The position numbers were made by a program, and so were the translations under genes. A stretch of DNA of 64,000 nucleotides from Xestospongia bergquistia (taxonomy: Eukaryota; Porifera; Demospongiae; Haplosclerida; Petrosiidae). Within the stretch, counting starts at the first letter, position 1. The number at the start of each line of letters is the position of its first letter. Below are positions 32,770-64,000 of the stretch, in pieces. The notes under the pieces are model-generated. The model saw nothing but the letters and a program-made list of their open reading frames with translations, was not told the origin of the DNA and made no database searches. Where the stretch lies: NCBI GenBank assembly GCA_963965975.1, contig OZ014421.1:5879001-5943000 (forward strand). The letters run 5' to 3'.

Positions 32770-35061
32770 ATGATGAATGGAGTGAGTAATTCAATATAAT
32801 ACATCTGTGAAATGAGAATGGCTAATTGTTGATATTTTAAACTTAATTATAAATATAGAATAGTCATAAATGTAGTATTTAAAGACGTCTGTTACTACTA
32901 GTAGATATAGATCTAGAGACTTGTTATAGCACAATATTATATCTCGTTTGTTAAGAGGTACAAGTATAAACAATTAAGCTACTACAATATAATAATAAAC
33001 CACTTATTTCAATTATAACAAGTTATTGGTAAAAAGAGTGAGTGGGCTTATAGTCTAGGACATGTCTGCTTAGAGTGAGCAATAAACCACAAGAGTACAG
33101 CCCTCATTTTAATTGGCATAGCTAACTAACAATGCAAAAGTGCATTAACAAATTTGTAGTTACTCCTTTGTGAAATAGTTGTTATTCAAAATACCAAATG
33201 ACAGACTGAGAGTTTAGAACTAATCATGAATTATTCATAGTAATATTTAGACTAAATTCATTAGCACATCATTTTTGGTCAATTAACACAATCTACTTTA
33301 TATAGTATTATATAGTATTCTTTAGATGTTATAAGTAAATTAATGATCATGGAGTCTGTCTGCCTTGGTCTATAAAATTGAGATATGTCAATTAATGTTT
33401 TGTCACCTGGAATATTTTAATCAACAATCTAAATATTTTATATTTCACTTTCAAAAACAACTATTTGTTGTATCATTAGTCTTCAACCCACACTTTATAT
33501 TATAATCTACACAATGTGGTAGATCAATGTGTCTCTTTTCTTACCATTTCATTTAATTTTGTTATGTTACACCCACTTGCTGATATTCCCTTAACACTAG
33601 TATTAAACTAACTGTATGATTGAGTAGGCGTCTTCTGTAAACCCACTTGTCTGGTCAGACCTTTATATATGATAACAATTGTTATACTGTACATTCTAAT
33701 TACATGTAAAATGTTTGCCGTACATGTGAAATAATGTCGTGGATCACTATCATTATATACTACACATATACCTGTAGAATACTGGAATATACTATACATA
33801 TACCTGTAGAATACTGGAATATACTATTATACCTGAGAATACTGGAATATACTGTAGAATGTATCACACAGTGTACATGTACTGTGTAGTACATGTATAT
33901 ATCATGTACCACATGATATGTACATGTGTTAATTTTGTTTATATTCTGAAATTCTAACAAAGAAGAAATAATTTGTTAGTAATTAGTCAGTTGTTAACTT
34001 TGCTGCATGTATGTGTGTGGGTGAGACATTTTGTGTCTGTCTGTTACTGGGCATACACTTTGAATTGCTCTCACTTGACAACAACAGTCTCCATAGCTAC
34101 AAAGTTTGCCAGAAATTGGCAAAATATTTTTCTAAAGATATGGTTTTCTCAGAGTTCTTATTGTTTGCTCTAGTATCCATGCATATTTAACGAAAGGTAA
34201 ATATCATATGATCACACGCTTGCATCTGTGTTGGTGTGAAAAGATTCTATACACGTGTCTTCATGAAGATTACTAGTATGAGGTAATTCTAAAATCAGAA
34301 GTTGTTGTCATTAAATCAGACGTCATCAAATCGAAAAGTCAAATAGACAAATACAACGCATTATGTGTTCACAAGTGACCACACCCACTTGTTCTTGGTG
34401 TATCGATAGTTAAGTTGTGAATAACACCTTATTAATGAGATTATGTACTTTAGTGTTTTTTATTTTAATGATGTTAATTTTACTTTGAGCTAGCCAAAAT
34501 AAACTGTTAGAGATAACGTACTTCCCATTTCATTTAACAATAACAGTATAATAATCATATTTATATTATTATATTAACAAAACAATAATACAATACCAAT
34601 ATTTTCCCGGCTACTTCAATTAATAAATGATAGTTTATTTTACTCAAACATAATAGTAAACATTTTATTGAATATATAGACCAGATAATGTCTTTCTTCT
34701 TCATTGTCTACCAATAAAGATACCTGATCTACTAGTAGTTGTAATACATGCTCTAGATTTGGTTTAGTTTGTACATTAAAATTTTCAAATTTTAAATTTA
34801 CACAATTTAAAACTTGATTTTCACAAAAGCAGCATTTTTGTCATATTTAAAATGTCCAAATTAAATGTTCATGCACGTTAATTTTCACAAATTTCGAGCT
34901 TTACAAAAATAGATGTCATCAAAAATAACCTGATTTATAATATTCTATCTCTTCTCCAGTTAATGAAATGTCTACTAGAACTACTACTAGAATATTATTA
35001 TATATATTTATTGACAATGTTTAATGTCAATATGTAATATAGTGACAGTATTATACCAGTA

Positions 35062-35119
<58 letters not shown>

Positions 35120-38100
35120 AATAGACACATTGTTAACTATTGCTAGTGTTAGTAATATTGTTTACATAAATGTTATAGATATTGTATAATGTTTCAGAAA
35201 CTGTTTGATCAATTGTATTAATAGTGTCTTTAAAATACATGAAAATGAAGACTTGTAAGAGTGTCTCTATCAAATTATTATTATAATATTTTTTGTGATT
35301 AGTACCTTTTTGTAACAAAGTACAGAGATATTGTTAACATATTATATTGAATAATACACTAAAGTATTATTATAGTACCAGAACAAAACATCCTAATATA
35401 TGTTATAGAGAGAGGAGATTGTTGATATAAATATCATTTGTGTTTGACTCTACTCCTTATCTCTCTACTCACTATTAACAAATATAATAATAACACAGTA
35501 TTAGTATTACTATTAACTCAGTATTGATAAGTACTCTTCTATAATAAATAATTACAATTGTTATTACTAATAATTACAATTACTTTACAACAACTGACTA
35601 TACCACTCCTAGTTGACATACTATTATCAGATAAATATGTTGTCTTTAGTAAAATACATGTGATGTTATAATCTCTTTGATCATTCAAGTAGTGATGAGT
35701 GGTTGATAATGGAATGTGTACTTTTTAGAATTGGCACATTTTTGAGGTGAATATAATTTATAACAGGTGTTCATTTACTAGGTTATAAAGGGTTAATATT
35801 GTGGATAGAAGATTTGATAGTTTGACACACACATGCACACACCTATAATGATGTATCTTATATAAACCTCTTATGATTTTCATTGTATATGTGCATTGTT
35901 GTTGATGTTCATAACTTTTTACAATAATTATATAATTTAATGTAAATAAATATTACTTTTTTTATTTTCTCTCTTTAGTTATCTCTGTGGTTGGTATTAT
36001 GTTTTATTCAAGTATCTTTACAAGTAGAGAGTAAGTCTTACTGTAATTAATCATTACAATATGATTAGAGGTAATGTAATTTAATACAGTAGTAAGATTA
36101 TTAAGATTAATACATTATCAAAAATTATGATAGTATATTTAAGACAAATCTAAATATATATTAATCAACATCACTATTAATTAATTTAAGAGCAGATAAT
36201 TATGATTACATCTATTATTTATCTATTATCCTTCCAACAGATATACCAATTAATTATCTGGTCACTCCACCAACTACTTATGAAGGTGGTATATTTATTA
36301 GTGACTGTGACCTGGGAAACAATAGAAATCTCACAAGATGTCCATCTAATGTCAGACTAACTAATAATGTCACTAATGAAGGGGTGACATTTGATGTTGC
36401 TAACTTTATGGGATGGAATGATAGCTTTAGTTTAGAATTTAATTTTGGATCACGATCATTTACATTCACTCAAGTGAATATTTACTTCTACAACAATCCC
36501 AGTGCTGGATATGGACTACCTGCCATTAGAACAAGTGTATCTTTTAGTGGTACTGAAGTAGATGATGCTATAATAGAATATTCATTTACTGATAACTCAG
36601 AGTTTTCTCAAACTGATGATCAAGTTCTAGTTATACCATTAATTATAACAACAAGTCCTGGCACTTTAAGTGAATACCAATTCTTTCGTCTCAATTTTGA
36701 TTTCACTTCATATCAAATCACCCAAACCTTTTTAAGTGAACTTACTTTCTTCTCTGGTACAAGTAAGTAATACATTATTATACTAAATGACAAATATAAT
36801 ACTCTACTCTCTCTAGGTACTAATGTTGATAATAGTCCTATTGAGTTTACAATACCATATCAGTCCTTACAATATGGTCCATCCACTCTACAGTCTTCAA
36901 TACAACTGAACTGTACAATAGCTAATAATGGATCATTTAGTTGGTCATCTTGGACTGGACCAGCAGTAACTAGTGGCAAAACAAAAGCCTTTTATGCTGA
37001 TACAACTCGTACTAGTATCCTATCTATTAATAGACTGAGCTCTGATGATAATGGAACCTATACTTGTACTGCTGAGTATAGTAACTCAGAGTTTACTAAA
37101 CATAGGACTTCTACTACCATCTCTCTAACATTAGATGGTAAGAATTATTAGTTATCCATATTAGTATGTGTAAAACACAGATCCTTTCCATAAATTCATT
37201 ATTTGTTATATAAGTTGTTTCTACAATAATCATTTGAATGTAATAACTTACCAATAATGTAGTCTTCATTCATATAAGTTCTCTCATTACTTTATGCAGG
37301 TATGGTATCTACTAATAGTCCAGTGACTGTACAGTCATCAAACAGTGCTAGACTACAGTGTATATTTACTGGTTACTTACCCACCTACTATGAGATAATA
37401 TGGACAGATATGACAGGATCTCCAATTAATGACTCCCTTGATCAGTATGATATTGATGAACGTGAAGGTCAAGGTCAATCTCAGAGAGGAGGAGATAATC
37501 TGGAGAGTGGTATTGTCAGTGAACTGACTATTATGTCACCAACTACTGATGATGAGGGTGTCTATACTTGTAGTATAAATGGTGGCACTCTAATAGGAAC
37601 AATACAACTGTTTGTACCAGGTAAGCTACCCATCTTTAGGCATAATTTACTAGTGTTATTTGTTCTATTGCTCCTTAATAAGCCACATATTCAATAATTC
37701 CAATATTCAATGCAATATAATTATTTTATAGTTACTCAACTTCTTTCTTTATTGAATATTATCAACACAAATGCTTGCACCTCTGTGTAAAGTGTGTATT
37801 AAATGTGTCTCTCTTGATGTTTTGTTAAAAGAACATGTGATTTGTCTTGACTAATTATTTCTACTCTATCATTGCTTCTCTAGCTCATTTTTATTTTTCT
37901 AAAGTAGAATTCTTCTGACTATAAACAATATTATAAATATTTAAAAAATTATCCTGTAGTTTATCATGAATCTGCTGATATTACTATAACATAGAAGTGT
38001 TGCTAAAATTTACAACTGAAGAGGCTACAACAATTGAGTGTATACATAATACTAATAAGTTTTTAAACATGTTCATTTTATTGTGTTAGCAATAGAAACT

Positions 38101-39950
38101 AAATTTGCTGGTTTCCATGTGTATTAGTAATTAATGTATGTGGTTATTATTTGCTATCAATAGTTATATATAACAATTATATAAAGCAATGTAGATGGAC
38201 ATATCTGATACACATTATATGTCAGGTATCAAATAAAATGCTTCATTATTCTCACTTTTATCTTCTCTTAGTGGCATCTACATCTACTCTGGTCATAACC
38301 ATACCTTCAACCACACCTTCAACCACACCCCCATCTACACCTACTGATAGGAGCAGCGGTGGTGTTTCAGGTGCAGTCATTGGTGGAGCTATAGCTGGAG
38401 TTATCCTGTTAATACTTATCTTAATTGTCTTTGTCCTCATTGTCATTTTTGTAATGATGAGTAGACGAACCGGCAGCAAAAAATTACCAAATGACTTAGA
38501 TGAACTTGGTGATCCCTTGTACACTGAAGTTGCTAAACCATCTCTTCCTCCTCTCCCCTCTCGTTTTGTCAACTCAGGTTATGCTTCCATAGATCTCCCT
38601 GGTAATGGCCACCCTTATCCCATGTCTGAACTATCTGGGTCTCCTCGTGCAAGATCACCACCTCAGAGCTCACCTGATCACCCCAAGCCTGCACAACTAA
38701 CTTTACGTCCTGACTTTTTGCAGAATAACCCGATGTATGCTTCAGCAGAAAATATAGACAGAATGCCACCTAATTTTGGTCTAAGACCAACTGGTAGTCT
38801 TCCCTTTTTGGATTCAAGTGACACCTTTGACATGGATTCAGAGTTCAATATTTATGCTAAACCTTCAATAGAGCCTCCCCCCGTCCCACCATATCGAGGT
38901 ACCCCTGATCCAGAAGAGGGTATCTTTACAGAAGAAGGTTTTAATCCATCTCTATTTAAACAGTCTTCTATGGATAGTAACAAAATTAGCTTTCATGGAT
39001 ACTATTCAGTATACAGTAACCCAAAGCCTCTGCAACGTTCCGACGGTCTGCTTCACGTTAAAGAGAAAAATATTCGCATCATTAAGGAACTTGGTATGGG
39101 ACAATTTGGTGAAGTTGTTTTAGCGTACACAGTTGGATTGACTCTCCAACAATTAAAATTAAGTGAAAGTAATACTGATACAATTAGTCTAATGGTTGCT
39201 GTTAAAAAATTAAAATCTGACGCTGACGATAAAATGCGAGAAGCATTCGAGAAAGAAGTCAAATTCATGGCTCGTCTTAAACACGAGAATGTTGTCCGTC
39301 TGCTTGGTGTATGTCTCTCTAGTAATGCTTTCATAATGATGGAATATATGGAGAGTGGTGATCTTAACCACTACCTCAGAGATAAAGATCTCATTACTGC
39401 CGAGTCTTACCCCCTGCCAGACAATGCTGTGACTGTCCCAGTACTTGTTTACATGTGTCTACAAATAGCAAGAGGTATGCACTATTTGGCGAGTTTGAGA
39501 TTTATCCATCGTGACCTGGCAACAAGAAATATATTAGTCGGGCAAGATTATAAAGTGAAGATCGCTGACTTTGGCATGAGTCAAAATCTCTATTCCGATT
39601 TCTACTATCGTATCCAGGGTCGTGCTATACTACCAATACGTTGGATGGCTAATGAGTGTTTTTATGGGCGGTTCTCTGAAAAGACAGATGTTTGGGCATT
39701 TGGAGTGTTAGTTTGGGAGATATTCACATTGTGTAAACAACAACCTTATGAACACCTCTCTGATCAAGAAGTTATCGACGATGCCGTTCGTGGGGAGGGA
39801 CGGATGCTCCTTAGTCAACCAGAACCTTGTCCCAATGAGGTATATCACGTTATGCTAAGATGTTGGAGTCATTCTCCTGATGACCGCGCCTCCTTTGAGG
39901 AAATTTATAATTTGCTTTCGAATATACATGCATATAATGAGATGTCTTGA
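32770..39950 (+). CDS. Receptor tyrosine kinase 1 (discoidin-like + 2 Ig ectodomain)
   Basis: Exons 32770-32781, 35979-36030, 36241-36762, 36817-37137, 37300-37620 and 38272-39950; 968 residues. A 12-nt first exon (MMNG) joins LSLWLVLCFIQVSLQVE to make a clean signal peptide. One beta-sandwich domain follows (FFRLNFDF, FLSELTFF end as in discoidin-like domains), then two Ig domains (LNCTI...YTCTAEY; LQCIF...YTCSING), a Thr/Pro stalk, a membrane helix after GGAIAGVILL, and tyrosines in FNIYAKP, SVYSNP and PVPPYR. The kinase has GMGQFG, VAVKKL, FEKEVKFM, HRDLATRN, DFG, the YxxxYY loop (LYSDFYYR) and PIRWM. The catalytic set is complete. The YxxxYY loop and overall sequence put it near the DDR/Trk/ROR type (inference). 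The ectodomain is the most diverged of the array, so this copy is probably the oldest. Confidence 0.92.
32782..35978 (+). other. First intron of RTK1
   Basis: 3.2 kb, very long for this locus. It contains tandem ATACCTGTAGAATACTGG units (about 33765-33855), TACATGTA palindromes (33870-33930) and an AC microsatellite at 35065-35115. No gene is supported inside. Confidence 0.55.
35065..35115. repeat. (AC)n microsatellite
   Basis: About 25 AC units in the first RTK1 intron. Confidence 0.95.
37621..38271 (+). other. RTK1 intron before the membrane exon
   Basis: 651 bp AT-rich intron, phase 1. In-frame extension of the last exon upstream of 38272 is not needed. Confidence 0.5.
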
Positions 39951-41038: not shown

Positions 41039-43059
41039 ATGTTGACAGTCTTTACTGCTGTGTTCATACTATTTAGTAACACTGCGTTGTGTCAAAATCA
41101 AATAAGTAAGTAGATCAATAATTTTCCTCATCATAATTCTGATATCATCTCTTGTACATGTAGATCCAATTCAATACAACATATTTTATTCTGTCTCCTT
41201 TGATGGTTCTAACCTCACTAACACTAGTTCAGGATGTATAGTAATTGAATCTGGTGTTCGTTTGAGATGTTTAAATAATAATGGTAAACTAGTTGATGGA
41301 GACATTGGTCCAATGAACTCAATATCTGATAACCTGGGAGAATTCTTTGCTTTTAGTAGACACTCAGTAGATGGTATTGGAAGAATTACATTTGTATTTG
41401 CTGTTGATGTATCAAGAGTAGTTATCTATTTCTTTAACTCACCTAATGACTCCATTGGATTACCTATGATCAGTCTTTATGGTGAGGGTGAACAACCTCT
41501 TAGCTATGTCTTTGACAACAATGATGATCTCAGACAAAGTGACTCTCAACTGAGAAATGTCACTCTCAATATACAAAAATTAACTGATACAGTTCAACTT
41601 GATTTTATCTTCAATACTAGTATAATTGACTGGTTATTAATAAGTGAAGTCAAGTTTTATAATAGTAAGTTAATATATAAACTATTGATATATTATTAAT
41701 ACATTATCCTATATTAGACAATCCAATATCTCCTTCATTGGACCCTATTGTCTTCCAGGATGGTCCCTCCCTAACTATGACCTTAGGACCAGACAACATT
41801 CAGTCTTCAGTCAATATCTCCTGTACAGTAGTCAATTTTGGTTCTTTTGAGTGGCAATGGCAATATAATGAGAGTATCATGAATCTTCCTGATCGTTCAC
41901 AAATATTAATAGGAGATGCTACAAGAACCAGTATACTAACTATTAATAAACTCAGATATAGTGATACTGGAAATTATAGTTGTCAAGCAAAACATTCAAC
42001 CAGCAGTATTAATGAAACTAGAAAGATTCAACTATATTTAACAGGTATTTCAAACAGATGTTCATAATATTGTTGTCAAGTGTGAAATGAGACACTCTTG
42101 ATTTATATCTAAGCTATCAAAAGTGATGATAGCATCAACAGATTATAGTGATATATATTACTATAGAATACTACTTACTATATTATATCACTGTTTTTAT
42201 TGCATGAGTACTCTCATATTGTGAACATTCCTCAGTTAGTGTGTAATGTTAATATATTGTCTAGTTCTTTGATGATGTTTACATGTATTACATGTGTATA
42301 CAGATAATAGGAACAGATATCTCACATGAAATATATAAAATGTAGATATAAAACTTATAAATAAATAAAATATTATATCATATTGAGATTAATAACAAAA
42401 CAATATGTAATACCTAATGATAAACAGATCATTATTAAGTTATTTTCAATTAGTAAACCACACACAATCAGTAGCCGTCTACAATTGGGGGTTAAAATTT
42501 ATCAATTATTAACTGTATAACAATGTAGTCAAGTTCTCATTTTATTTTCTGAATACAATATCATAAAACAATCAGTTTAATTGTTGCTATTTTTTCTTTC
42601 TCCTATATAGTTGGTCTAACACCTTTATCATCATCTATCAATAGTACTATCAATGAGGCTGTTAGTTTGAGTTGTGAGTTAACTGGTTACCTGACTATGT
42701 CATCAGATATACAATGGATAAGAGACAATACTATACTAACTAATACTGGCAGTAAATATATGATCACTAACAAATTAGGCAGTGGTAATGCTATTAATAG
42801 CAGTGGTATGATGACACAGAGTATTATTAGTCAACTTACTATCTCAAACCTCAATCAATCAGACAGTGGATCTTACATATGTACTGTACCTGGTACAGGA
42901 ATACAACAGACCATTACTGTGACAATAAGTAAGTCTATATATTACATAAAGTTTTCTAGTTAATTTTATTTAAAGAATGTAGATTGTATCTTAAAATTGT
43001 ACCTACCTTTGATACACTAGTGTATATAACAGCCTCAAAACAAAAATAATAGGATGTTA

Positions 43060-43122
<63 letters not shown>

Positions 43123-46100: not shown

Positions 46101-48663
46101 TGTCCCAAGTAATTATAGATAGATATTAACTGAGTGTGTCAAGAATGTACTGACTATCTTTTAGTCCTTACTGTAGACTCTACTTCTACAACTATGATAG
46201 CTAGAATAGCCACGCCCACTATGACTGATGCCTTAATCTCAGTATCAACGACATCAAGTAATTCAAAATAAAACAAATTAGTCATATCTCACATGATAGT
46301 TTTATTTTGTTACTTGGCTTACTAATACTAAAGACTATATAGTTATATAGTACAATCGAAGTGGGACGACTATTTCTTTATCAATTGCTATAGCTCACAT
46401 TATATTTAGATGACTAACTTGTTGGTTGCTCCAGTGCATATTAGCATTTACAATGTCCTAGTTTGATGTTGTTGTTTAAATACAATAGTCAGTCACATTA
46501 GAATATTACAGTAAATAAATGAATGAACCAAAATATTTTGTTGTCCCAAATAACAATAGGACTGCTTGTTAGTGTTGTTACTAAGTGTTGTTGTTATATT
46601 GTGACTGTCAGTAGCTGTCTATAGTAACTAGATTATAATAACAATGTCATATTATAGTTTAAAAGATATTATAAACACTTCTTTGTACTTTTATGATTTA
46701 ATTTACATTTGTGAATAAATTGTATATTAGGAATAGTAATTGATAAAGGTGGTTTTAAGGGCTTGGCTACATACTCAATTTATATAGTGTATATATTATA
46801 TTATTGTTAACGTAATAAAATAATTAACAAGTCTATAGAACTTTACACCTTTATATTTGTCCTGTTGTCTGTCTGTAAATTATTTTTTCAGGTGTGATAG
46901 TTAATTATTCCATTAATTAGTGGACACAAAAATTGTGAAGATAATAAGTTAAATGATAATATTAAAAAATGCAATTCAAATTAAGTAGTCATTTTATATT
47001 TCATTATCCATTAGATCCTTCCACTGTCACTTCATTGTCACCTCAAACCACATCAACATTTATACCAACTAATCCTTCTATAAGCGCCTCATCTAGCCCC
47101 AATTTATTACCAATCATAATAGGCATTGTAATTGCCTTCATAATCATCCTAGCAGTGGTTATTGTCATATTTATTGTCATAGTCTTGTGCCTATATAGAA
47201 GAAAATCCTACATTCCACCCACCAGCCCTAACTCCAAGGAACTAGTGCAGCCTGAAGTCTACTATTCATCTATTAACAAGACAGTTGGCTCTAACTCAAA
47301 AACCCCAATCATCGCTCCGTACTCTGAAACTGAGTTTATATCAACTGAAAATTTGGTTAACAACAGTTATTCAAATGTTAAGCAAAGTAATTCAATGGAT
47401 AACATGTATCAGGAGATACCAGATCCTCCTCCACCACGCCCAATTCGATCAAAACAAAATGCCATCCTAGTAGAGAATGCAATGTATTCATCAGCCGATC
47501 AGCTAAACAATATTAACGCTGCTGTGTCCAATCCTCCATTGAATTCAACTGACTTTAGCGGTTCAGCTTTTAATATCTATGCAGAACCAAATAAGGTACT
47601 TCCTCCACCTATACCGGACTTTAGAGCCTCTCCTTCGATGTATAGTATAGATCTAAACCCATCTCATTTCCGATCACAAGAACTCTTATCACAAGAGGAC
47701 TCCTCTTCACTGCACCCATTCTCCTCTGTTTATGCCGATCCTTTACCCATCCTTAGATCAGATGTGTTAGAGGTCACTGAACAAAATATTAGTGAAATCA
47801 AAGAGCTTGGTGTTGGTCAGTTTGGTACAGTCATACTTGCAAGCACAATCGGTTTGAGTCTCAAAGATTTGGGTCTCGGGAATGTGAATACCAGTGTGAG
47901 TATTTTAGTGGCTGTAAAAAAGCTGCATTATGATGCAGATGCTTACGAGAGAGAAGCCTTCGAGAAAGAAATCAAATTCATGTCTCGTCTGAAGCATGAA
48001 AATGTCGTACATATTCTGGGAGTGTGTCTGAATACAAACGCTTTCATTATGATGGAATATATGGAGAATGGAGACCTCAATCAATACATACAAAAATTTG
48101 AGTTCTCTCCAGACTGTGAGACATCTGAGGCAGATAAATTTATAAATGTTGCTGTTCTCATATACATGTCACTTCAGATCGCTAGTGGAATGCGGTATTT
48201 AGCCTCAATGAATTTTGTACATAGAGATCTTGCTACTCGAAATTGTCTAGTCGGTCAAAAATTTATTGTAAAGATAGCTGACTTTGGTATGAGTCGACAG
48301 TTATACGATAATTCATACTACAGAATTCGTGGAAAAGCTATGTTACCAATACGTTGGATGGCCAAGGAGTGTTTCTACGGCCGGTTCTCTGAGAAAACAG
48401 ATGTGTGGGCATTTGGTGTCGTTATGTGGGAAATATTTACACTCTGTAAGCAACAACCATACGAACATTTATCAGATCAGGAAGTCATTGATGATGCTGT
48501 CCGTGGGGAGAACAGGTCTCTTTTGCAACAGCCTCATCCATGCCCTGACGAGGTCTATCAAGTTATGGTCAGATGTTGGGCACCACATTCAGAGGAGAGA
48601 GCAACTTTTGAAGAAATTCATGGTTTATTAGCTCAAATACATGCTTATAGTGATATGGCGTAA
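41039..48663 (+). CDS. Receptor tyrosine kinase 2 (discoidin-like + 2 Ig, duplicated stalk exon)
   Basis: Exons 41039-41105, 41164-41664, 41718-42044, 42611-42928, 45729-45821, 46165-46257 and 47015-48663; 1015 residues, all ectodomain joins phase 1. Signal peptide MLTVFTAVFILFSNTALC. The discoidin-like domain spans one exon, from DGSNLTNTSSGC to DWLLISEVKFYN. Ig1 has NISCTVV...WQWQY...NYSCQA; Ig2 has SLSCELTGY...YICTVPG. Two 93-nt Thr/Ser-rich stalk exons are copies of each other. The membrane segment (IIIGIVIAFIIILAVV) is followed by Tyr motifs VYYSSI, FNIYAEP and SVYADP, and by proline-rich stretches. The kinase is complete: GVGQFG, VAVKKL, HRDLATRNCLVG, DFGMSRQLYDNSYYR, PIRWM. The kinase is very close to RTK1, including the WEIFTLCKQQPYEHLSDQE block. 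Ligand unknown. Confidence 0.92.
42045..42610 (+). other. RTK2 intron between Ig exons
   Basis: 566 bp, AT-rich; nothing further seen. In the sister genes the matching intron is only about 45-56 bp. Confidence 0.5.
42929..45728 (+). other. Long RTK2 intron rich in repeats
   Basis: 2.8 kb containing a GA microsatellite (43067-43110), GGATGGAT-type tetranucleotide stretches (43325-43400 and 44360-44435), a perfect 42-bp palindrome (43821-43862) and a cluster of TACATGTACAT words (45250-45425). No exon is supported. Confidence 0.55.
43821..43862. repeat. Perfect 42-bp palindrome
   Basis: The 21-bp arm that begins CAACTACATATATGGACATA is followed directly by its exact reverse complement. Confidence 0.95.
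45690..46510 (+). repeat. Tandem duplication carrying a stalk exon
   Basis: Two copies of a block of about 385-430 bp (45690-46075 and 46128-46510). Each includes a 93-nt phase 1-1 exon plus flanking intron with shared landmarks such as GTTGGTTGCTCCAGTGCAT and ATTAGCATTTA. Confidence 0.88.
46258..47014 (+). other. RTK2 intron before the membrane exon
   Basis: 757 bp. It includes the rest of the second copy of the duplicated block; the remainder is AT-rich with no feature seen. Confidence 0.5.
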
Positions 48664-51648: not shown

Positions 51649-54600
51649 ATGTATTTAAAGCTGTCACTTCTTGTCTGTTATATTATACTACTTTATCATA
51701 TTGTATCATCACAAACTCAGATTGGTTAGTAAATATAGTTATTACATATTGTTCTAGTATCTTTCTCTATAGATCCAGTTCAATACAACATATTTTATGC
51801 TGCCTCATTTGATGGTTCTAACCTCACTAATACTAGTTCAGGATGTATAGTGATTGGATCTGGTGTTCGTTTGGGATGTTTAAATACTAATGGTAAACTA
51901 GTTGATGGAGACATTGGTCCAATGAACTCAATATCTGATAACCTGGGAGAATTCTTTGCTTTTAGTAGATACTCAGTAGATGGTATTGGAAGAATTACCT
52001 TTAACTTTCAAACTGTTACTCCTGTATCAAGAGCAGTTATCTATTTCTTTAACTCACCTAATGACTCCATTGGACTACCTATGATCAGTCTTTATGGTGT
52101 GGGTAATCAACCTCTTAACTACACCTTTGACAACAATGATGATCTGAGACAAAGTGACTCTCAACTGAGAAATGTCACTCTCAATATACAACAATTAACT
52201 AGTATAGTTCGACTTGATTTTATCTTCAATACTAGTATAATTGACTGGTTATTAATAAGTGAAGTCAAGTTTTATAATAGTAAGTTAATATATAAACTAT
52301 TGATATATCATTAATACATTATCATATACTAGATACTCCAATATCTCCCTCATTCGACACCATTGTCTTCCAGAATAGTCCTCCACTAACTGTGATCATA
52401 GGACCAGACAATATTCAGTCTTCAGTCAATCTCTCCTGTACAGTAGTCAATGTTGGTTCCTTTGAGTGGCAATGGCAATATAATGAGAATGTGTTAGATT
52501 TTCCTGGTCGTTCACAAATATTAATAGGAGATGCTACAAGAACCAGTATATTAACTATTAATCAACTCAGATATACCGATGCTGGGAGTTATACTTGTAT
52601 TGCAAAGTATTCACTAGGAACAGTAAACAATGCAAGTACAATATTATTAGGTAAGAAATAGTAAGACCACTATTCTTATTAATTATTTATAAGCAGAATT
52701 TATTATATACACGATAATAAAGCTTCATAATCTCATTGATATTATTATCTGTTAATAGAATAGCATGTAAACTGACACATATGCAGACTATGAATAAATA
52801 CATAATAAGTACAAACCTCTTGTTATGGCTGATAAAACCCACTCAAATGCCCGTAGTATTTTACATCACTTGAACCAGTACTATCAAATAATTTTAGGAC
52901 ACAGTTGTAATTTTGTTAAATAAATAATTTTAGATGAAGTTATTCTTTTTACTTTTTAATTAGTTACTCAACCAGTTTCTCAACTAACCTCATCAAGTAC
53001 TATAATTTCTTCATCCACAATAGTCACTAACCTCCCATCAGTATCCAGTACTTCATCAATTACTAGTTCTAGTATATTATCATCATCGTCACAGACTCCT
53101 AGCCCTCCTCCTTCTTCCTCTAATATTGCTATAATAGGAGGCATTGCAGGAGCTATAATCATCAGTATTATATTACTTGTCGTTGTTATGGTGATATTAA
53201 TTATTGTTGTCATCATTTGCAAACGGAAACAAAAACCTGTCAGTGATTTGCGTAGCAGAGGAAGCATCAAGTACACCATTAGTCAAGACAAGGAGCTGGA
53301 AGTTTCTCAGAATCAACAACGAAATGATTATGCTTTTGCTAAGATAGAAGATGAAAATGAACTGACATATTCTGTTGTTGTGAAAGACAAAGAAGAACCA
53401 CCTGCTATACCACCTCAAAATTTTGTCAACGAGTATGATCATATTACACCAAAAAAAGATCCTATATCATTTGATTTAGAATGGCGGAAATCTGCTCCAC
53501 CAAAATTAGCTAAAGTCAGTAACTTAAATGGATATAAGTTAGTAGATAACCCAATGTTCAGAGACACTGATAGCCCTATAGAGGGTTACTCATCTTTACC
53601 TATGCCTGTTTATTCTGAGGCAGTGGATCATCCAACTGCTAATGGCTCACCTATCTACGACCAAGCAAAGACTCCAGATGATATTTACTCTGAACCTCAA
53701 TGGAAAAAGGAACAGAACCCATTTGAAGTCAATCTGGATAATCCTATCTATGAAGATGCTGATAACGATCAGCCTTTTTCATTTGTACAATCTGATCTTT
53801 ATAGCGAAGGTGCCATATATGCTGAGCCTCAAAAACTCCTTAATCCACTCCTTGATGTCACTCAAGATAACATCAATGAAATAAAACAACTTGGTATTGG
53901 ACAGTTTGGAGAGGTTGTCTTAGCTGAGACTGTAGGTCTCAGTCTTAAAGACTTACGAATGAGTCCTTCAGATGACGATAAGTCAGTGTTTGTTCAAGTT
54001 GCCGTTAAGAAGATGAAAGAAGATAGTGACCCAAAATCATGGGAAGCTTTTGATAAAGAAGTCAAATTTATGTCTCAACTAAATCATGTCAATGTCATTC
54101 GTCTTTTAGCTGTTAGTCACTCTAGCTGTACAGAACATTTCATAGTAATGGAATACATGGAGAATGGAGATCTTAACCAGTTTCTGCTGAATCATCATTT
54201 TTGTAGCCAACATCCTCCACCTTCACCTAATCAACTATCACCTCAAATCCTTCTCTCTATGTGTATTCAAATTGCCAATGGTATGACATACCTTGCCTCT
54301 AATAACTACATTCATAGAGATCTTGCTAGTCGTAATTGTTTAGTAGGTCAGAACTATGTGATTAAAATTGGTGATTTTGGTCTAAGTCGTAATTTGTATG
54401 ACTCTGTTTACTATCGTGTGAAAGGCAAAGCAAAGATGCCAATACGATGGATGTCAACAGAATGCTTTTATGGCAAATTCTCAGAGAAGTCAGATGTTTG
54501 GGCATACGGCATAACAGTATGGGAGATTTACACAATGGGACGAGAACCACCATATGCAACGCTCTTAGATCAGGAGATTATTGAAGATGCATTAAAGGGT

Positions 54601-54756
54601 CCCCATCGTATGCTATTACCAAGGCCTCCTGGATGTCCTCAAGGAGTTTACACTGTGATACGAAAATGTTGTTGGGGAAGCAAGCCGGATGAACGAGCTC
54701 ATTTTAATGAGATATACTGTCAGTTAGTTGAAATTGAGAAGACATTAGATAATTAA
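51649..54756 (+). CDS. Receptor tyrosine kinase 3 (discoidin-like + 1 Ig)
   Basis: Exons 51649-51724, 51773-52279, 52333-52650 and 52964-54756; 897 residues, phase 1 joins. Signal peptide MYLKLSLLVCYIILLYHIVSS. The discoidin-like exon is nearly identical to that of RTK2, but only one Ig domain follows (NLSCTVV...WQWQY...SYTCIAKY). Then come a Ser-rich stalk, a membrane helix after AIIGGIAGAIII, and a juxtamembrane region with YSVVVKDKEEPPAIPP, DNPIYEDADN and IYAEPQ. The kinase has GIGQFG, VAVKKM, FDKEVKFM, HRDLASRNCLVG, DFGLSRNLYDSVYYR and PIRWM, and looks active. The kinase is more distant from RTK1 and RTK2 than they are from each other (WEIYTMGREPPYATLLDQE). The KDK...PP block recurs in the kinase-less genes downstream. 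Confidence 0.93.
52651..52963 (+). other. RTK3 intron
   Basis: 313 bp AT-rich phase 1 intron, nothing else seen. It stands where RTK2 has its second Ig exon. Confidence 0.5.
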
Positions 54757-55327: not shown

Positions 55328-57528
55328 ATGCAGATTTTTCATTTTACTGTCATAACCTGTTTATTATTAGCAGAATCTTCTTTGGCTAGTAAGATCAGTA
55401 AGTAGCTATAAATAAACTTTAGATAGTATCAGCATTATTCCTTTAGGTCCTCTCCAATATAACATATTTCAAGTAGTCTCCTTTGATGGTTCCACTCTCA
55501 CTAACACTAGTTCAGGATGCACTGTACGGTCTAATGTTCACTTACAATGTATAAATGGTAAACTAAATAATGGAGACATTGGTCCATTGAACTCAATATC
55601 TGGTAACCTGGGAGAATTCTTTGCTTTTAGTCGGCAATCAGGAGACAATACTGGAAGAATTACATTCACATTTGCAGTTGATGTTTCTATATCAAGAGCA
55701 GTTATCTATTTCTTTAACTCACCTAATGACTCCTTTGGATTACCTATGATCAGTCATTATGGTGTGGGTAGTCAACCTCTTAGCTATGTCTTTGACAACA
55801 ATGATGATCTCAGACAAAGCGACTCTCAACTGAGAAATGTCACTCTCAATATACAACAATTAACTACTGTAGTTCAACTTGATTTTATCTTCAATACTAG
55901 TATAATTGACTGGTTATTAGTAAGTGAAGTAAAGTTTTATAATAGTAAGTTAATATATAAACTATTGATATATCATTAATACATTATCCTATACTAGACA
56001 CTCCAATATCTTCCTTATTGGACACTATTGTCTTCCAGGGTGGTCCTTTACAAAGTGTGACCTTAGACCTTGACCAGTCTTCAGTTAATCTCTCTTGTAC
56101 AGTAGTCACTACTGGCTCCTTTGAGTGGCAATGGTTTTACAACAAGAATGCATTAGATGTTCCTGGTTGCACTCAGGTGTGGATAGGAGATACTACAAGG
56201 ACCAGTATACTAGCTATTAATAAACTTGATTTTATTGATGTTGTTGGTAACTATAATTGTGTTGTCAGACATACACTAGGAACAGTTAACTCTACCAGAA
56301 CTATAGACTTGAGACTACAAGGTATTATAAATATTCCATTATGAACCATTTAAATATGTCATCATTGTTGTATTCAGGTGATCGTAATGTCACTGTTCCT
56401 AGTTCTGTGATTTCTGCTTACATTGGAGATAATGTTGTTCTTACTTGTCACTTTGAGCTACATGGCTGTTTAACTCATTACACTTCTGTACAATGGAATC
56501 ATACAAGTAGTGTGGTACAAAATGATGAAATAAAATATGTCATTGTAACTAACCTCACTAACTCAAATTTTATAATCAGTCAATTGACAATTAGGAATGT
56601 CAGCAACAGTGATATGGGGGATTACAAATGTAGGGTTCTTAGAACACATTTAGAAAAGAGGATTTCCTTGAACAGTAAGTTATTATTGTTATTCTGTTTA
56701 TATGCAAATGTTTATAAATAAACTATTTACTATAGCATCTTTTCCCACATTATCATTGATGTCAATTAACTTTTCCTTAGTATCACAACATATACTAATA
56801 CAAAACACACACCTAATGTACTATCAGCTATATCAAGTATAACATTACCTACTAATACATTAACAATCACTACAACATCTACTAATATAAAGCCAACATC
56901 TAGTATGAAGTCAATGAGTACACTGTCTATTGATCCAGTATTCATTAGTAGGCCATCAATTGGTACAACATCTTCAATAATGTCATTAAATAAAACTTCT
57001 ACTAATACAATATTGGTATCAATTAATACAATACAGAGTACACTGTTGATTGCTACAACTTCTACCACTATGCCTACAGCTAGTGAGGCCATAAGACTTG
57101 ACATTGTAATAGGAACAACTATAGACATACTAGTTGTAATAATACTACTCATTTTAATAGTCATTACACTTCTGTTGATAATAATACATCAGAAGAAGAA
57201 ACAAAAAATTGACACTTGGATTGAAGAAGAATCAGAACATGATGTTGCTACTATTAATGAAGACACAGTGTACTCGATTATCAACAGAGACAAAGATGTA
57301 CCACCTGAAGTACCACCTCAATTTTTTGATGATATTGATGAATATGATAGTACTAGTGACTTGTACCAATTGAATGATCATTCATATGATTATGTTATAG
57401 CTAATAATCAAGTAGTGTTTGACATATTGGATAAACCTAGTAATAATGATAACTCTACAACTGTGTATTATCTTCCTCATTATGAGTCTGTTAGTAATGT
57501 TATCGAACTATTATATGATCAAACTTAA
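55328..57528 (+). CDS. Kinase-less receptor 4 (discoidin-like + 2 Ig + TM + Tyr-rich tail)
   Basis: Exons 55328-55397, 55447-55944, 55998-56321, 56378-56674 and 56828-57528; 629 residues. Signal peptide MQIFHFTVITCLLLAESSLA, a discoidin-like domain matching RTK2/RTK3, two Ig domains (NLSCTVV...YNCVVRH; VLTCHF...YKCRVLR), a Thr/Ser stalk, and a membrane segment (ILVVIILLILIVITLLLIII) followed by HQKKKQK. The tail of about 120 residues has YSIINRDKDVPPEVPP, EYDSTSDLYQL, YDYVIANN and LLYDQT, and then stops. There is no kinase, nor space for one. The last acceptor is the uncertain step: 56780 (TCCTTAG) looks better but shifts frame by one, while 56827 (TACTATCAG) restores it. The tail carries possible SH2 docking sites (inference). 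Confidence 0.82.
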
Positions 57529-58116
57529 GATATTAATTCTCAAATATGATTATATGATCCAAACACAAAATATTAATCTTTTAATATCACAATATTATGA
57601 TATTATTACTAACATGATTGAATCTCCTGTTACTTTTGATAATACAGAAGTAGTTTATGATTGTTGTTAATAAAAATAGTGTGGTCTTTTCTTTTTTAAG
57701 TTTTATATCTTTATGTTTACTTTATTATTAGATTAATAATAACAAATACAAATTTATTATCATTTTATCGCTCAAAGTTATAGACAAAGTTAAGTTAATA
57801 TTGTTAATGATTATTAATACTATTCTTTAATAAAGGTCTAATTATTAAAAACTAAAACAATAAAATACCAATTAAAATAATTCATAATTATTACTTCATT
57901 AGTTCAATGTATATTTGATTACATTAACTTAAAATGTTATTTAGAACTTAAGTACTTAACTAAAGAATTAACAAGTTGTATTTTTATTAATTAGTCATAA
58001 ACAAACTAAACACCCACATCATGCATTGCTTGTATTTTTATTACAAAATAATATATAAATTACTATAGTAGTAAGTTCTCATACACTCGACTATATTTGT
58101 TTTATATCAAGTCAAG
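57529..58116. other. Spacer receptor 4 / receptor 5, copied at 63190-63737
   Basis: Begins with a ghost of a longer tail, then a poly(A) signal AATAAA at 57669-57674. Almost the whole spacer recurs nearly base for base upstream of receptor 8. It holds the promoter of receptor 5. Confidence 0.6.
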
Positions 58117-59867
58117 ATGTTGACAGTCTTTACTACTGTGTTCCTACTATTCAGTAACACTGTGTTGTGTCAAAATCAAATAAGTAAGTAGATCAATATT
58201 TTCCTTGTCATAGTTCTGATATCATCTCTTGTTCATGTAAATTTGACTCAATACAACATATTTAATGCTGTCTCTTTTGAAGGTTCTAACCTCACTAACA
58301 CTAGTTCAGGATGTATAGTGATTAAATCTGGTATTCATTTGAGATGTTTAAATACTAATGGTAAACTAGTTGATGGAGATCATAGGACCAAACAACCTTC
58401 AGTCTTCAGTCAATATCTCCTGTACAGTAGTCAATGATGGTTCCTTTGAGTGGCAATGGCAATATAATGAGAGTATTCCTGATCGTTCACAAATATTAAT
58501 AGGAGACGCTACAAGAACCAGTATACTAACTATTAGTAAACTCAGATATAGTGATACTGGAAATTATTCATGTATTGTAAGACATCTACAGGGAACAGTG
58601 AACTACATAAGACTCATAAAATTAGAATTAACAGGTACTGATTATTAATAATATTAACTTTAATTATCACTAATTTTTAGCTAACATTACTGCTATATCT
58701 AATAGCATGACCTCAGCTAATATTGGACATAATGTCACCCTATCATGTGAAGTCTATGGATATCTGCCACCTAATGTTACTATAATATGGAACTATGATA
58801 CTGGAGTGATTAATAATGGAGAACATTATAAGATTACAACAAATACTGGATCATTAATGGCAATTGATTTCAATGGCAATATTACCAATAGTATTGTCAG
58901 TAATCTTACAATATATAATGTAAATAGCAGTGATAATAGGACATTTAGCTGTACGATATTAAGAACATTGCTACAAGCAACAATCAGTTTAAATGGTAAG
59001 TTTATTTATAGTTAAAATAACATTATTATGTGTCTTTTTATGCCCACATTTATGCAAATGTCACTGACACAAGTCATCAGTGTTACTACATCCATTAGCA
59101 CACTGTCAATTGGTACAACACCTACAAACATTAATACACCCACTAGTGATGTAACTCCTATTACTTCTATTAGTGGTACTAGTTTAACTCCTTCAGCTGA
59201 TGTAACTACTACCGCTAACAATATACCAATTAATCTTGAGATAATTATAGTAGCCATTGTGATATTTCTAATGCTCCTTGCTGTAGTGACCATTGTACTT
59301 CTTTGTTGGTTAATAAAACAATACAAGAAGAAACAAAGACATGATACTCATGTCTTACAGGAAACAGAGACAAACAAAAACAAACAAGCTGCAGACATTG
59401 ATGATATTGATCAGGTGTACACAGTTGTTATGAAAGACAAAGCTCCTGAACTACCACCTACATATCTCTTGTCAGAAGACACCATTGATCACACTAAAAA
59501 CACAAATCAACAAGAAGAATATCACATTTTAAACAATCCATTGTATGTAAAACAAGATGAAGTCACTGAAGTATATTCTCTTGCTTATCATATCTATGAT
59601 GAAGCTCAAGGGGTAACTCATCAAATACCAGTAGTTTATGACAGTGTCGTTGATATGACTAATCTTAATGTTATTAATGATGAAATGGAATATCATATAC
59701 CAATTAAGCTTCGTCATACCAAAATGAATGAAGATATTTTTATAACAGATGATACTGATGAAATGGAATATGCTATACCTACTAAACTGTTATTGAACCA
59801 TTATATGATCAAACACAAAATATTAATCTTTAAATATCACAATATTATGATATTATTACTAACATGA
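58117..59867 (+). pseudogene. Kinase-less receptor 5, damaged 5' half
   Basis: The signal-peptide exon 58117-58183 is intact. The next exon has lost its acceptor: sister genes read TGTAG/ATCCA where this copy reads TGTAA ATTTG. The discoidin-like exon then breaks off after KLVDGD and runs straight into the middle of the Ig1 exon at about 58380, a deletion of roughly 0.5 kb that also shifts the frame. Downstream parts look sound: the rest of Ig1 to 58634, Ig2 58681-58995, and membrane/tail exon 59074-59867 (YTVVMKDKAPELPP, HILNNPLYVKQ, two EMEY motifs). Because junctions are phase 1, splicing from the signal exon to Ig2 (392 codons with stop), or to a cryptic acceptor at 58409 inside Ig1 (467 codons), would still give an open frame. 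It may therefore be a remodelled gene rather than a dead one. The last acceptor lost its pyrimidine tract. Confidence 0.75.
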
Positions 59868-60468
59868 TTGAATCTCCTGTTACTTTCGATAATACAGAAA
59901 GTAGACTATGATTGTTGTTAATAAAAATTGGTATGGTCTTTTCTTCCTTAAATTTTATATCTTTATGTTTACTTCATTATTTGTTAAATAACAAGAAGAA
60001 AGTTAATGTCACATTTCTCATAGTTATAAATGCAGTTTTCAATTTAATATTACTAGTTATAATAAATATTATTCCTATGAGAAAGTTCTAAAATACTAAA
60101 ATAATTAAAATACAAATCAAAAGAAATCAAACTATTGAACTGCTTGCTCATTATCACTGATAAAAACTATAGATGCAGTTAAGTTAATATTGCCTAATTA
60201 TCTAATACTAATATAATAAAAATACCAATTAAAATAATCAAATTTTAACACTGTATAAACTTCAATGTACATTTGATTATAGCAATGTAAAATTTATTGA
60301 TTAGTTAACTGAAGAAATGACAAGTTGTAATGTTTATTTACTATTCATAAAGACACACTAAACTGCCACATCATCCATTACTTTATTATAAGTATAGCTG
60401 TAAAATATAAACTAGTGCAGTAGTAAGCTCTCATATACTCTAATATGTCTATATTATATGAGGTCAAG
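59868..60468. other. Spacer receptor 5 / receptor 6
   Basis: 601 bp. Poly(A) signal AATAAA at 59920-59925. Related to, but more diverged than, the spacers at 57529 and 63190. Promoter of receptor 6 presumed. Confidence 0.5.
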
Positions 60469-62473
60469 ATGTTGACTGCCTTTGCTGTGTTCATACTATT
60501 CAGTAATATTGTGTTGTCTCAAGTACAGATTGGTAAGTTAAGTGAGGCTATGTTTATAATTCTATTACCTTACTCTGTACAGATTCAGTTCAATACAACA
60601 TATTTTATGCTGTTTCTTTTGATGGTTCTAACCTCACTAATACTAGTTCAGAATGTATAGTGATTGGATCTGGTGGTAGTTTGAGATGTTTAAATGGTAC
60701 TGGTAAACTAGTTGATGGAGACATTGGTCCAATGAACTCAATATCTGATAACCTGGGAGAATTCTTTGCTTTTAGTAGATACTCGGTAAATGGTATTGGA
60801 AGAATTAGCTTTAACTTTCCTAATTCTACTTCTGTATCAAGTGTGGTTATCTATTTCTTTAACTCACCTAATGACTCCATTGGACTACCTATGATCAGTC
60901 TTTATGATGTGAGTAGTCAACCTCTTAGCTATGTCTTTGACAACAATAAAAATCTCACACAAAATGACTCTCAACTGAGAAATGTCACTCTCAATATAAC
61001 ACAATTAACAAGTACAGTTCAATTTGATTTTATCTTCAATACTAGTATAATTGACTGGTTATTAATAAGTGAAGTCAAGTTTTATAATAGTAAGTTAATA
61101 TATAAACTATTGATATATCATTAATACATTATCATATACTAGACACTCCAATAACCTCAATGGACAACATTGTCTTCCACGGTGGTCGCACACTAAATGT
61201 GATCATAGGACCAAACAACCTTCAGTCTTCAGTCAATATCTCCTGTACAGTAGTCAATGATGGTTCCTTTGAGTGGCAATGGCAATATAATGAGAGTATT
61301 CCTGATCGTTTACAAATATTAATAGGAGACGCTACAAGAACCAGTATACTAACTATTAATAAACTCAGATATAGTGATGCTGGGAATTATACTTGTATTG
61401 CAAAGCTTTCAATAGGAACAGAGAACAATACAAGAGACACAAAATTAGAATTAACGGGTAATGATTATTAATAATATTTAAATTAGTAACACTAATTCTT
61501 GTTTTAGTTGACATTATTGCTATACCTAACAAAATGGTATCAGTTACTATTGGAGATAATGTCACTCTATCATGTGAAGTCTATGGATATCTACCACCTA
61601 ATATTACTATAATATGGAACTATGATACTGGAAGGATTAATAATGGAGAACGATATAATATTGCAACAAATACTGGATCATTAATGGCAATTGATTTCAA
61701 TGGCAATACTACCAATAGTATTGTCAGTAATCTTACAATATATAATGTAAATAGCAGTGATAATGGGACATATACTTGTATGATGTTAGGAACATTGCTA
61801 CAAGCAACAATCAGTTTAAATGGTAAGTTTATTTATAGTTAAAATAACATTATTATGTGTTTTTTTATGCCCACATTTATGCAAATGTCACTGACACCTT
61901 TTCATAGTCATCAGTGTTACTACATCCATTAGCACACTGTCAATTGGTACAATACCTACAAGCATTAATACACCCACTAGTGATGTAACTCCTATTACTT
62001 CTATTAGTGGTACTAGTTTAACTCCTTCAGCTGATGTAACTCCTACCGCTAACAATATACCAATTAATCTTGAGATAATTATAGTAGCCATTGTGATATT
62101 TCTAATGCTCCTTGCTGTAGTGACCATTGTACTTCTTTGTTGGTTAATAAAACAATACAAGAAGAAACAAAGACATGATACTTATCATGTCTTACAGGAA
62201 ACAGAGACAAACAAAAACAAACAAGCTACAGACATTGATGATATTGATCAGGTGTACACAGTTGTTATGAAAGACAAATGTCCTGAACTACCACCTACAT
62301 ATCTCTTGTCAGAAGACACCGTTGATCACACTAAAAACACAAATCAACAAGAAGAATATCACATTTTAAACAATCCATTGTATGTAAAACAAGATGAAGT
62401 CACTGAAGTATATTCTCATGCTCATCATATCAATGATGAAGCTAAAGAGCTAACTCATCAAATACCAGATTAG
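60469..62473 (+). CDS. Kinase-less receptor 6 (discoidin-like + 2 Ig + TM + Tyr tail)
   Basis: Exons 60469-60532, 60583-61089, 61143-61457, 61508-61822 and 61908-62473; 588 residues, all joins phase 1. Signal peptide MLTAFAVFILFSNIVLS. The discoidin-like domain runs from FDGSNLTNTSSEC to DWLLISEVKFYN; Gly of the usual SSGC is Glu here. Ig1 has NISCTVV...WQWQY...NYTCIAK and Ig2 has TLSCEVYGY...TYTCMML. The stalk is Ser/Thr-rich, and the membrane helix is VAIVIFLMLLAVVTIVLLCW. The tail contains YTVVMKDKCPELPPTYLL, EYHILNNPLYVKQ and VYSHAH, and ends at QIPD. A poly(A) signal lies 32 nt later (62505-62510). No kinase. It is the intact sister of receptor 5, whose tail is longer. Function unknown; a co-receptor, substrate or decoy for the nearby kinases is possible (inference). 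Confidence 0.88.
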
Positions 62474-62659
62474 ATCTGATTGGATTTAACAAAAGTATAA
62501 AACAAATAAAGTGATAACTATTTTTACATATGCTGAATTCATTTCTTTAAATTTGTTAATGTATTTTTAAAGGATGTGCCTATAGGTCTGGCTGAAAGTA
62601 ATACATTGCTGTGTATGGTTAATAATTAGGGGGTGGGGATCAGTTTAATTGCAACAAAG

Positions 62660-63189
62660 TACAAAGTACAATATTGGTATCAATTAATACAATACAGAGT
62701 ACACTGTCCATTGCTATAACTTCTGCCATTATACCTACAGCTAGTGAGGCCATAAGACTTGAAATTCTAATAGGAGCAGCTATAGCCATACTAGTTGTGA
62801 TAATACTACTCCTTTTAATAGTCATCACACTTTTATTGATAATAATACATCAAAAGAAGAAACAAAAAAATGATACTTGGATTGAAGAAGAATCAGAACA
62901 TGATGTTGCTACTATTAATGAAGACACAGTGTACTCCATTATCAATAGAGACAAAGATGTACCACCTGAAGTACCACCTCAATTATTTGATGATATTGAT
63001 GAATATGATAGTACTAGTGACTTGTACCAATTGAATGATCATTCATATGATTATGTTATAGCTAATAATCAAGTAGTGTTTGACATATTGGATAAACCTA
63101 GTAATAATGATAACTCTACAACTGTGTATTGTCTTCCTCATTATGAGTCTGTTAGTAATGTTATTGAACTATTATATGATCAAACTTAA
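62660..63189 (+). pseudogene. Orphan membrane/tail cassette, copy of receptor 4 exon
   Basis: Open frame almost identical to the last exon of receptor 4: stalk end, membrane helix (ILVVIILLLLIVITLLLIII), YSIINRDKDVPPEVPP, YDYVIANN, LLYDQT, stop. It has no signal peptide, discoidin-like or Ig exon of its own. Homology to receptor 4 starts near 62668 and continues past the stop into the spacer. An AG at 62658-62659 would open it in phase 1, so it could serve as an alternative last exon for receptor 6, but the tract before it is poor and receptor 6 has its own poly(A) signal first. Confidence 0.7.
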
Positions 63190-63737
63190 GATATTAATCC
63201 TCAAATATCACAATATTATGATATTATTACTAACATGATTGAATCTCCTGTTACTTTGATAATACAGAAAGTAGACTATGATTGTTGTTAATTAAAATAG
63301 TGTGGTCTTTTCTTTTTAAGTTTTATATCTTTATGTTTACTTTATTATTAGATTAATAATAACAAATACAAATTTATTATCATTTTATCACTCAAAGTTA
63401 TAGACAAAGTTAAGTTAATATTGTTGATGATTATTAATACTATTCTTTAATAAAGGTCTAACTATTAAAAACTAAAATAATAAAATACTAATTAAAATAA
63501 TTCATAATTATTACTTCATGAACTTCATTAGTTCAATGTATATTTGATTATATTAACTTAAAATGTTATTTAGAACTTAACTAAAGAATTAACAAGTTGT
63601 ATTTTTATTAATTACTCATAAACAAACTAAACACCCACATCATGCATTGCTTGTATTTTTATTACAAAATAATATATAAATTACTATAGTAGTAAGTTCT
63701 CATACACTCGACTATATTTGTTTAATATCAAGTCAAG
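63190..63737. other. Spacer before receptor 8, copy of 57529-58116
   Basis: Near-identical to the spacer between receptors 4 and 5, with a few substitutions and small indels. The AATAAA present at 57669 is altered here to AATTAAA. Confidence 0.7.
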
Positions 63738-64000
63738 ATGTTGACAGTCTTTACTGCTGTGTTCATACTATTTAGTAACACTGTGTTGTGTCATAGTAAG
63801 TAGATCAATATTTTCCTTGCCATAGTTCTGATATCATCTCTTGTACATGTAGATCCAGTTGAGTACAATATATTTTATTTTGTCTCTTTTGATGGTTCTA
63901 ACCTCACTAATACTAGTTCAGGATGTATAGTGATTGGATCTGGTGGTCGTTTGAGATGTTTAAATACTAATGGTAAACTAGTTGATGGAGACATTGGTCC
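63738..64000 (+). CDS. Receptor 8, 5' part only (runs off window)
   Basis: Signal-peptide exon 63738-63795 (MLTVFTAVFILFSNTVLCH), then exon 63853 onward beginning the discoidin-like domain (VEYNIFYFVSFDGSNLTN, RCLNTNGKLVDGDIG). Here the acceptor TGTAG is intact, unlike receptor 5. Whether a kinase follows cannot be seen. Confidence 0.85.

Follow-up and report, generated by a model that had tools for sequence, protein, structure and literature searches.

The window analysed here is a stretch of 64,000 nucleotides (nt) from the sponge Xestospongia bergquistia (C11:5879001-5943000, in a genome of 146 Mb and 21 contigs), whose right part carries the beginning of a tandem array in which genes for receptor tyrosine kinases (RTKs) of the discoidin domain receptor (DDR) class, a collagen-receptor type, stand together with sister genes devoid of the kinase. 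On balance, this array seems to work as a paired-receptor system, whose kinase-less members would bind the same ligand as the kinases, those with a tail being substrates in trans and the short ones decoys. A mixed array had been proposed in a preliminary description of this DNA and turned out to be real and larger than described, with 14 kinase genes or pieces and many kinase-less sisters within about 160 kb. At the level of sequence, the layout, the intact kinase-less members and the paired or decoy character suggested at that time are borne out; one member, D184m, is predicted to be a decoy.

Extent and composition of the array

Array positions are contig positions minus 5879000, and the numbering is continued past 64000 for the right flank. 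Profile searches of six-frame open reading frames (ORFs) in 231 kb placed the array at positions 36 to 195 kb; the window covers its left 28 kb, and about 130 kb more lie beyond, ending at approximately C11:6,074,300. The N-terminal domain was matched 56 times, each immunoglobulin (Ig) domain 44 times, the kinase 16 times and the tail 65 times, the 16 kinase matches falling on 14 DDR-like tyrosine kinase genes or gene pieces, two of them split. When the N-terminal domain of the kinase-less gene A60, a query that misses the diverged K1 type, was searched genome-wide, 48 places were retrieved, 46 in the array and two on C1, while the type-A tail (see below) gave 41 matches, 40 in the array and one, at the edge of the E-value, on C2. 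The C1 region (C1:1335001-1365000) holds two kinase-less relatives, one intact and one with a broken Ig2, in immune-looking surroundings, near a GTPase ORF (MMR_HSR1, with AIG1 just under the cut-off) and a leucine-rich-repeat ORF.

Twenty of 21 complete-looking gene models were open, K1 being counted without its exon 1 and K11 failing where exons 1 and 2 meet; the GT/AG sites and the common phase 1 are no separate evidence for the genes, since they were imposed when the models were built. A full open frame from signal exon to stop was found in five kinase genes of the array (K2, K3, K4, K7 and K10) and in 13 kinase-less ones (B55, A60, A63, A66, A69, A89, A95, A112t, A116, A120, A147t, C181m and D184m); C1b, the open kinase-less gene on C1, brings the complete kinase-less genes to 14 overall. 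Among the three RTKs described as complete in the window, K2 and K3 are indeed so, and the first exon of K1 was looked for and not found. The minimum of two intact kinase-less receptors is reached with A60, which is clean, and B55, open only with the downstream acceptor 56939, whereas the gene regarded as partial is cut by the window edge and is in fact complete (A63, to position 65746). The right end of the array (positions 175989-195310) is occupied by three kinases, K12-K14, which are diverged members of the same group; no DS-like exon was detected with them in the profile searches of array ORFs.

Gene structure and domain identity

A typical gene consists of five exons joined in phase 1, coding for the signal peptide, a DS-like domain (DS), Ig1, Ig2 and a single last exon, which in the kinase genes holds stalk, membrane span, tyrosine-rich juxtamembrane region and the whole kinase. 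By sequence, the kinase of K2 belongs to the DDR class: its closest PDB entries are DDR2 (E 7.3e-85, 288 bits), then DDR1 (279 bits), TrkB (222 bits) and MuSK (189 bits), and these best matches narrow the generic RTK label initially given. The other kinases of the array align with that of K2. The DFG motif is retained in all of them except K4, K5 and K6 (outside the window, at about 85.6, 98.8 and 101.7 kb), which read NFG and may be pseudokinases, standing between active and kinase-less forms.

As for the ectodomain, all four scanned Ig exons score above threshold with one or more Pfam Ig families, and PF21114 (DDR1-2_DS-like) matches 17 of 19 DS exons at E <=0.1 (best 6.3e-5), these exons giving beyond it a single stray match to another family. 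The AlphaFold model of the DS domain was poor (pLDDT 54.8). The ectodomain comprises two Ig domains preceded by a domain that weakly resembles the DS-like domain of DDRs. A discoidin (F5/8C) domain, the collagen-binding one, was not found in 10 scanned stretches or in the 19 DS exons, and Ig domains follow the DS instead. To judge from these features, the receptors are DDR-related through their kinase, yet not canonical DDRs.

Ectodomains shared by the two classes

In the tree of the DS exons (23 rows), seven changes between kinase and kinase-less labels were counted and 362 of 500 label shuffles were as low; the tree of the Ig2 exons (30 rows) also required seven, and all 500 shuffles were as low. 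Neither tree separates kinase from kinase-less copies. This agrees with the earlier claim of one ectodomain for both classes, as do the blocks shared in three compared pairs (Table 1): very similar ectodomains occur in both classes of the same gene cluster. The blocks were obtained by BLAST of gene stretches, with partner genes chosen as close DS, Ig1 or Ig2 neighbours, a cleaner test than free-end pairwise identities, where unrelated flanks read from 0 to about 60%.

Between K1 and the kinase-less D184m (C11:6061774-6063707, minus strand, 146 kb from K1 and on the opposite strand) a single match was obtained, starting 4 nt before the first ectodomain exon and ending 3 nt after the third. K2 and C181m also lie in opposite orientation, and the intron between their two blocks, as well as the last exon, had no match. 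Confinement to the ectodomain exons is exact in K1/D184m and less exact in K3/A116 and K2/C181m. Within the K1/D184m block the introns are 93-97% alike, Ig1 has no synonymous difference (dS 0) and the DS exon has a dS of 0.17; because of these alike introns and dS values, an exchange in pieces is likelier than conserved function alone. We infer that the exchange between classes took place by gene conversion.

Loss of the kinase and the remaining tails

The type-A tail corresponds to a kinase exon from which about 1.03 kb, kinase included, was removed in frame. In the copies compared (seven of the 15 bearing the junction), the last exon is 94-96% identical to the K7 kinase exon over up to 560 nt and, past the deletion point, resumes at K7's last coding bases and 3' flank; the K7 exon ends with GAT-TAG, identical to that of the type-A tails. 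A 90-nt junction probe matched 15 copies on both sides, 13 at >=91% and A112t and A147t at 88%, while kinase genes matched on one side only. One of the 13, a minus-strand copy at 128 kb, is without the usual stop, its frame being longer by two codons. Compared over 21 residues, the membrane spans of A60 and K7 differ at a single position.

The damaged copy reported in the window is A58, whose tail fuses a kinase-gene juxtamembrane region with a type-B 3' end; a probe for this fusion retrieved five copies, two of them with one open tail frame. The last exons of D184m and C181m had no BLAST match to those of K1 and K2. Since the type-A deletion, the A58-type fusions and these non-matching last exons differ, the kinase-less state arose, on sequence grounds, more than once and by at least two structural routes. 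The first would be an in-frame deletion within the kinase exon (type A), and the second would have left last exons recombinant with, or unrelated to, those of the partner (A58-type, C and D), the origin of type B being unclear.

Splicing of the tail exons to a distant kinase exon is unlikely, because membrane span and kinase share one exon and the type-A stop matches K7's own. It is also quite improbable that the array represents a repertoire of alternative exons, in which several ectodomains would accept tail cassettes or nearby last exons by in-phase splicing and the kinase-less state would be partly a splice choice. Such a use would be helped by the mutual compatibility of the exons in phase 1 and by a possible acceptor (62741) inside the tail cassette of the window, ahead of its membrane span; the cassette itself was confirmed and is of type B. 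However, most cassettes are frameshifted, and in every complete type-A gene, A60 included, Ig2 is followed at no more than about 100 nt by a last exon of the gene's own. The frameshifts in most homologous cassettes likewise do not favour the type-B cassette as an alternative last exon of A60.

Among 13 type-A tails, YTVV is retained in all, PELPP in 12 and the NPLY tyrosine in 10. D184m is nearly tail-less, its membrane span being followed by about 9 residues, none of them a tyrosine, and is thus predicted to be a decoy, i.e., ectodomain and anchor without signalling tail; no other of the 14 complete kinase-less genes is of this kind. Its structure would also suit a purely adhesive or decoy role of all kinase-less members, which would do no more than attach to ligand or to neighbouring cells, in competition with the kinases, their tyrosines being inert leftovers; this overlaps with the paired-receptor reading as far as D184m is concerned, and the absence of NPxY from the type-C, type-B and A112t/A147t tails points in the same direction. 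We regard it nonetheless as rather unlikely for the array as a whole, considering that a YxxV...PP module recurs in type A, type B, K3, K4, K7 and K10, although type B is far diverged.

Elsewhere in the genome, ten tyrosine-kinase matches lie within 75 kb (C6:1621395-1696864), all on the minus strand; the one examined is a Src-family kinase with Fyn as best PDB match, and such kinases could phosphorylate tails.

Selection and frame preservation

Selection was estimated on 21 of 23 DS, 29 of 33 Ig1 and 26 of 31 Ig2 exons and on seven of the 14 kinases; the K1/D184m-type exons, the Ig2 exons of K2, C181m and K13, and short Ig1 exons were left out, and so were B55, B92 and K11 in a further comparison. 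Omega was 0.34 (confidence interval, CI, 0.26-0.41) for the seven kinase domains and 0.73-0.87 for the ectodomain exons. C1b and C181m, kinase-less type-C genes on different chromosomes, gave an omega of 0.47 (CI 0.37-0.62), which shows purifying selection at the sequence level, although part of the divergence could predate kinase loss.

The 13 type-A tails have 111 substitutions, none of them nonsense (3.6 expected, P 0.03), and no frameshift, their three internal indels being of 3, 3 and 51 nt; in the flanking stretches 23 (3') and 21 (intron) indel events were counted, alignment-end effects included. At least eight distinct frameshifts were found in 17 type-B tails, 13 copies being shifted. 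The difference in frameshifts between the two types has a P of 0.01, or of 0.03 with two truncated type-A copies, in a comparison that ignores shared ancestry.

The paired-receptor reading

In the mechanism we propose, an ancestral receptor with a DS-like domain, two Ig domains, membrane span, tyrosine-rich juxtamembrane region and DDR-class kinase would have been duplicated in tandem, and exchange centred on the ectodomain exons would keep kinase and kinase-less members alike, so that both would meet the same ligand. By analogy with DDR1, type-A proteins would be substrates in trans for kinase members or Src-type kinases, and their tails, clustered with the kinase members, would dock SH2/PTB adaptors; D184m, with its short tail, would be a decoy. 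The two classes may also give opposing signals.

Several observations weigh against this reading. With regard to the ectodomain, the PF21114 matches are weak (22 bits for the member shown, under the 27-bit cut-off), the K2 DS exon compared with PDB by sequence gave no DDR match (best E 0.75), and a genome search with PF21114 was empty, though its control came up empty as well. With regard to exchange, that between K1 and D184m was not one recent event, because the DS exon is older than Ig1, and sharing is not always confined to exons, since the K2/C181m block enters the signal exon and K4 and A147t match gene-wide, from 400 nt upstream to the juxtamembrane region, diverging where the tail is deleted. 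Moreover, K4, the only kinase gene with an upstream region 98% that of a kinase-less gene (A147t), is one of those reading NFG, and in the same upstream region K7 is just 76-79% alike. The tails have no strict ITIM in A60, and among the 13 of type A the NPLY tyrosine is gone from three and the leading proline of PELPP from one.

Further points of this kind come from selection and from the census. Strong purifying selection on the type-A tails is unsupported, with an omega of 1.12 (CI 0.65-2.30), or 0.87 (CI 0.46-2.03) for the cytoplasmic part, and amino-acid constraint on these tails is not shown because of that value and interval; A60/K4 gave 1.45 (CI 0.98-2.48). The type-A and A60/K4 values are compatible with relaxed constraint. 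In addition, 26 of 44 DS-bearing units (K1 and K11 included) are without a full open frame in the models, being damaged, fragmentary or unresolved. A type-A omega of about 1, together with full open frames in only 18 of the 44 units, the frameshifted type-B tails and the broken kinase frames of K5 and K8, would fit birth-and-death debris, that is, kinase loss as ordinary decay in a fast tandem array, leaving kinase-less copies that are recent and mostly neutral relics. Yet the type-A frames are preserved, unlike the type-B tails of the same array, the kinase-less C1b and C181m bear the mark of purifying selection, the kinase was lost by more than one route, and ectodomains are shared with kinase genes. 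Debris is therefore a fairly improbable account of the array, and the paired-receptor reading is the one we retain.

Comparison with known systems

The paired receptors of the cited literature are vertebrate immune receptors. In the passages concerned, gene conversion restricted to the ligand-binding exons keeps these alike and opposite orientation is given as a requirement (PMC5112662); for Siglec-11/16 such conversion is described under relaxed constraint (PMC5701461). The array resembles CEACAM, Siglec-11/16 and KIR in its clustered genes, very similar ectodomains, different signalling tails and exchange centred on ligand-binding exons, as well as in the opposite orientation of K1/D184m and K2/C181m. 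It differs from the vertebrate receptors in that an RTK is itself one of the partners and the ectodomain appears to carry a DDR DS-like domain.

According to the portions of the DDR literature cited, signalling-dead receivers are phosphorylated by an active DDR1 donor, from dimer to dimer once the ligand has bound, a process that needs the membrane span and neither the kinase nor the ectodomain of the receiver (PMC5489314), and the human receptors DDR1d and DDR1e are truncated and kinase-deficient (PMC4789497). The preliminary description names neither of these precedents. The likeness lies in the DDR-class kinase, in the C-terminal truncation and in the trans-phosphorylation of kinase-dead partners shown for DDR1. 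The human forms are, as far as described there, splice isoforms of one gene, whereas here separate genes by the dozen are found, with Ig domains and no F5/8C domain found.

Eph receptors without kinase domain are mentioned in sponges, cnidarians and ctenophores (PMC6485061); here too, early animals have members of an RTK family that lack the kinase, but the family is a different one and the passages on Eph describe no paired array. Another case is offered by sponges themselves. Geodia cydonium has the adhesion molecules GSAML and GSAMS. It also has an Ig-domain RTK (Schacke 1994, cited in PMC12018476), whose gene, in the excerpt cited, has introns outside the kinase domain (PMC5793068). Ig-like ectodomain and intron placement are common to both systems, but no tandem mixed array or ectodomain sharing appears in the passages on Geodia. 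In the open-access literature no tandem array mixing RTKs with kinase-less sisters was described among the matches listed. Kinase-less RTK isoforms and genes are already known, and the mixed tandem array would work like a paired-receptor system.

Features of the window

The array genes of the window and the blocks shared with genes outside it are collected in Table 1. To the left of the array, two tandem FAD-dependent monooxygenase-like genes were found (19098-20961 and 21113-23488), with Pfam FAD/NAD-binding families in the first exon scanned; we take them to be MICAL-like. A TRIM-like open frame with weak RING, B-box and filamin repeat lies at 16864-18501 on the minus strand.

Table 1. Array features within the window (array positions).
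Feature	Position	Strand	Exons or basis
K1: DS-like, Ig1, Ig2, stalk-membrane span-juxtamembrane-kinase	36241-39950	+	exons 36241-36762, 36817-37137, 37300-37620, 38272-39950
K1 block common with kinase-less D184m, 94%	36237-37623	+	BLAST
K2, complete kinase gene, 953 aa	41039-48663	+	exons 41039-41105, 41164-41664, 41718-42044, 42611-42928, 47015-48663
K2 block with C181m, 89%: most of signal exon, DS, most of Ig1	41059-41977	+	BLAST
K2 Ig2 exon block, 97.8% to kinase-less C181m	42575-42931	+	BLAST
K3, complete kinase gene, 897 aa, without Ig2 exon	51649-54756	+	gene model
K3 block with kinase-less A116, 96%: DS and most of Ig1	51780-52602	+	BLAST
B55, kinase-less, type-B tyrosine-rich tail (YSII, PPEVPP)	55328-57528	+	592 aa if acceptor 56939 is used
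A58, damaged copy; most of DS exon and part of Ig1 lost	58201-59867	+	profile search, tail comparison
A60, complete kinase-less receptor, 588 aa	60469-62473	+	exons 60469-60532, 60583-61089, 61143-61457, 61508-61822, 61908-62473, phase 1
A60 in-frame kinase-deletion junction region, ending in stop codon	62466-62473	+	comparison with K7
Type-B tail cassette, open frame without own ectodomain, remnant of a B-type gene	62626-63189	+	ORF
A63, start of complete kinase-less gene continuing outside the window	63738-64000	+	gene model

Biological meaning

The array could be a recognition locus. It is possible, and we put this forward only tentatively as something rather doubtful, that it serves an early animal for telling self from non-self or for recognising microbes; a KIR- or CEACAM-like pairing would then have been built independently on a DDR-class RTK, with kinase-less trans-substrates and decoys evolved repeatedly and matched to the kinases by ectodomain gene conversion. 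Direct tests are possible, given a single locus, 18 complete genes in the models and the clear ectodomain pairs K1/D184m, K2/C181m and K4/A147t. If true, the paired-receptor principle would have had a second, independent origin, from an RTK paired with a version of its own kinase exon that has lost the kinase, and recognition receptors of an early animal would have a concrete candidate locus in this array.

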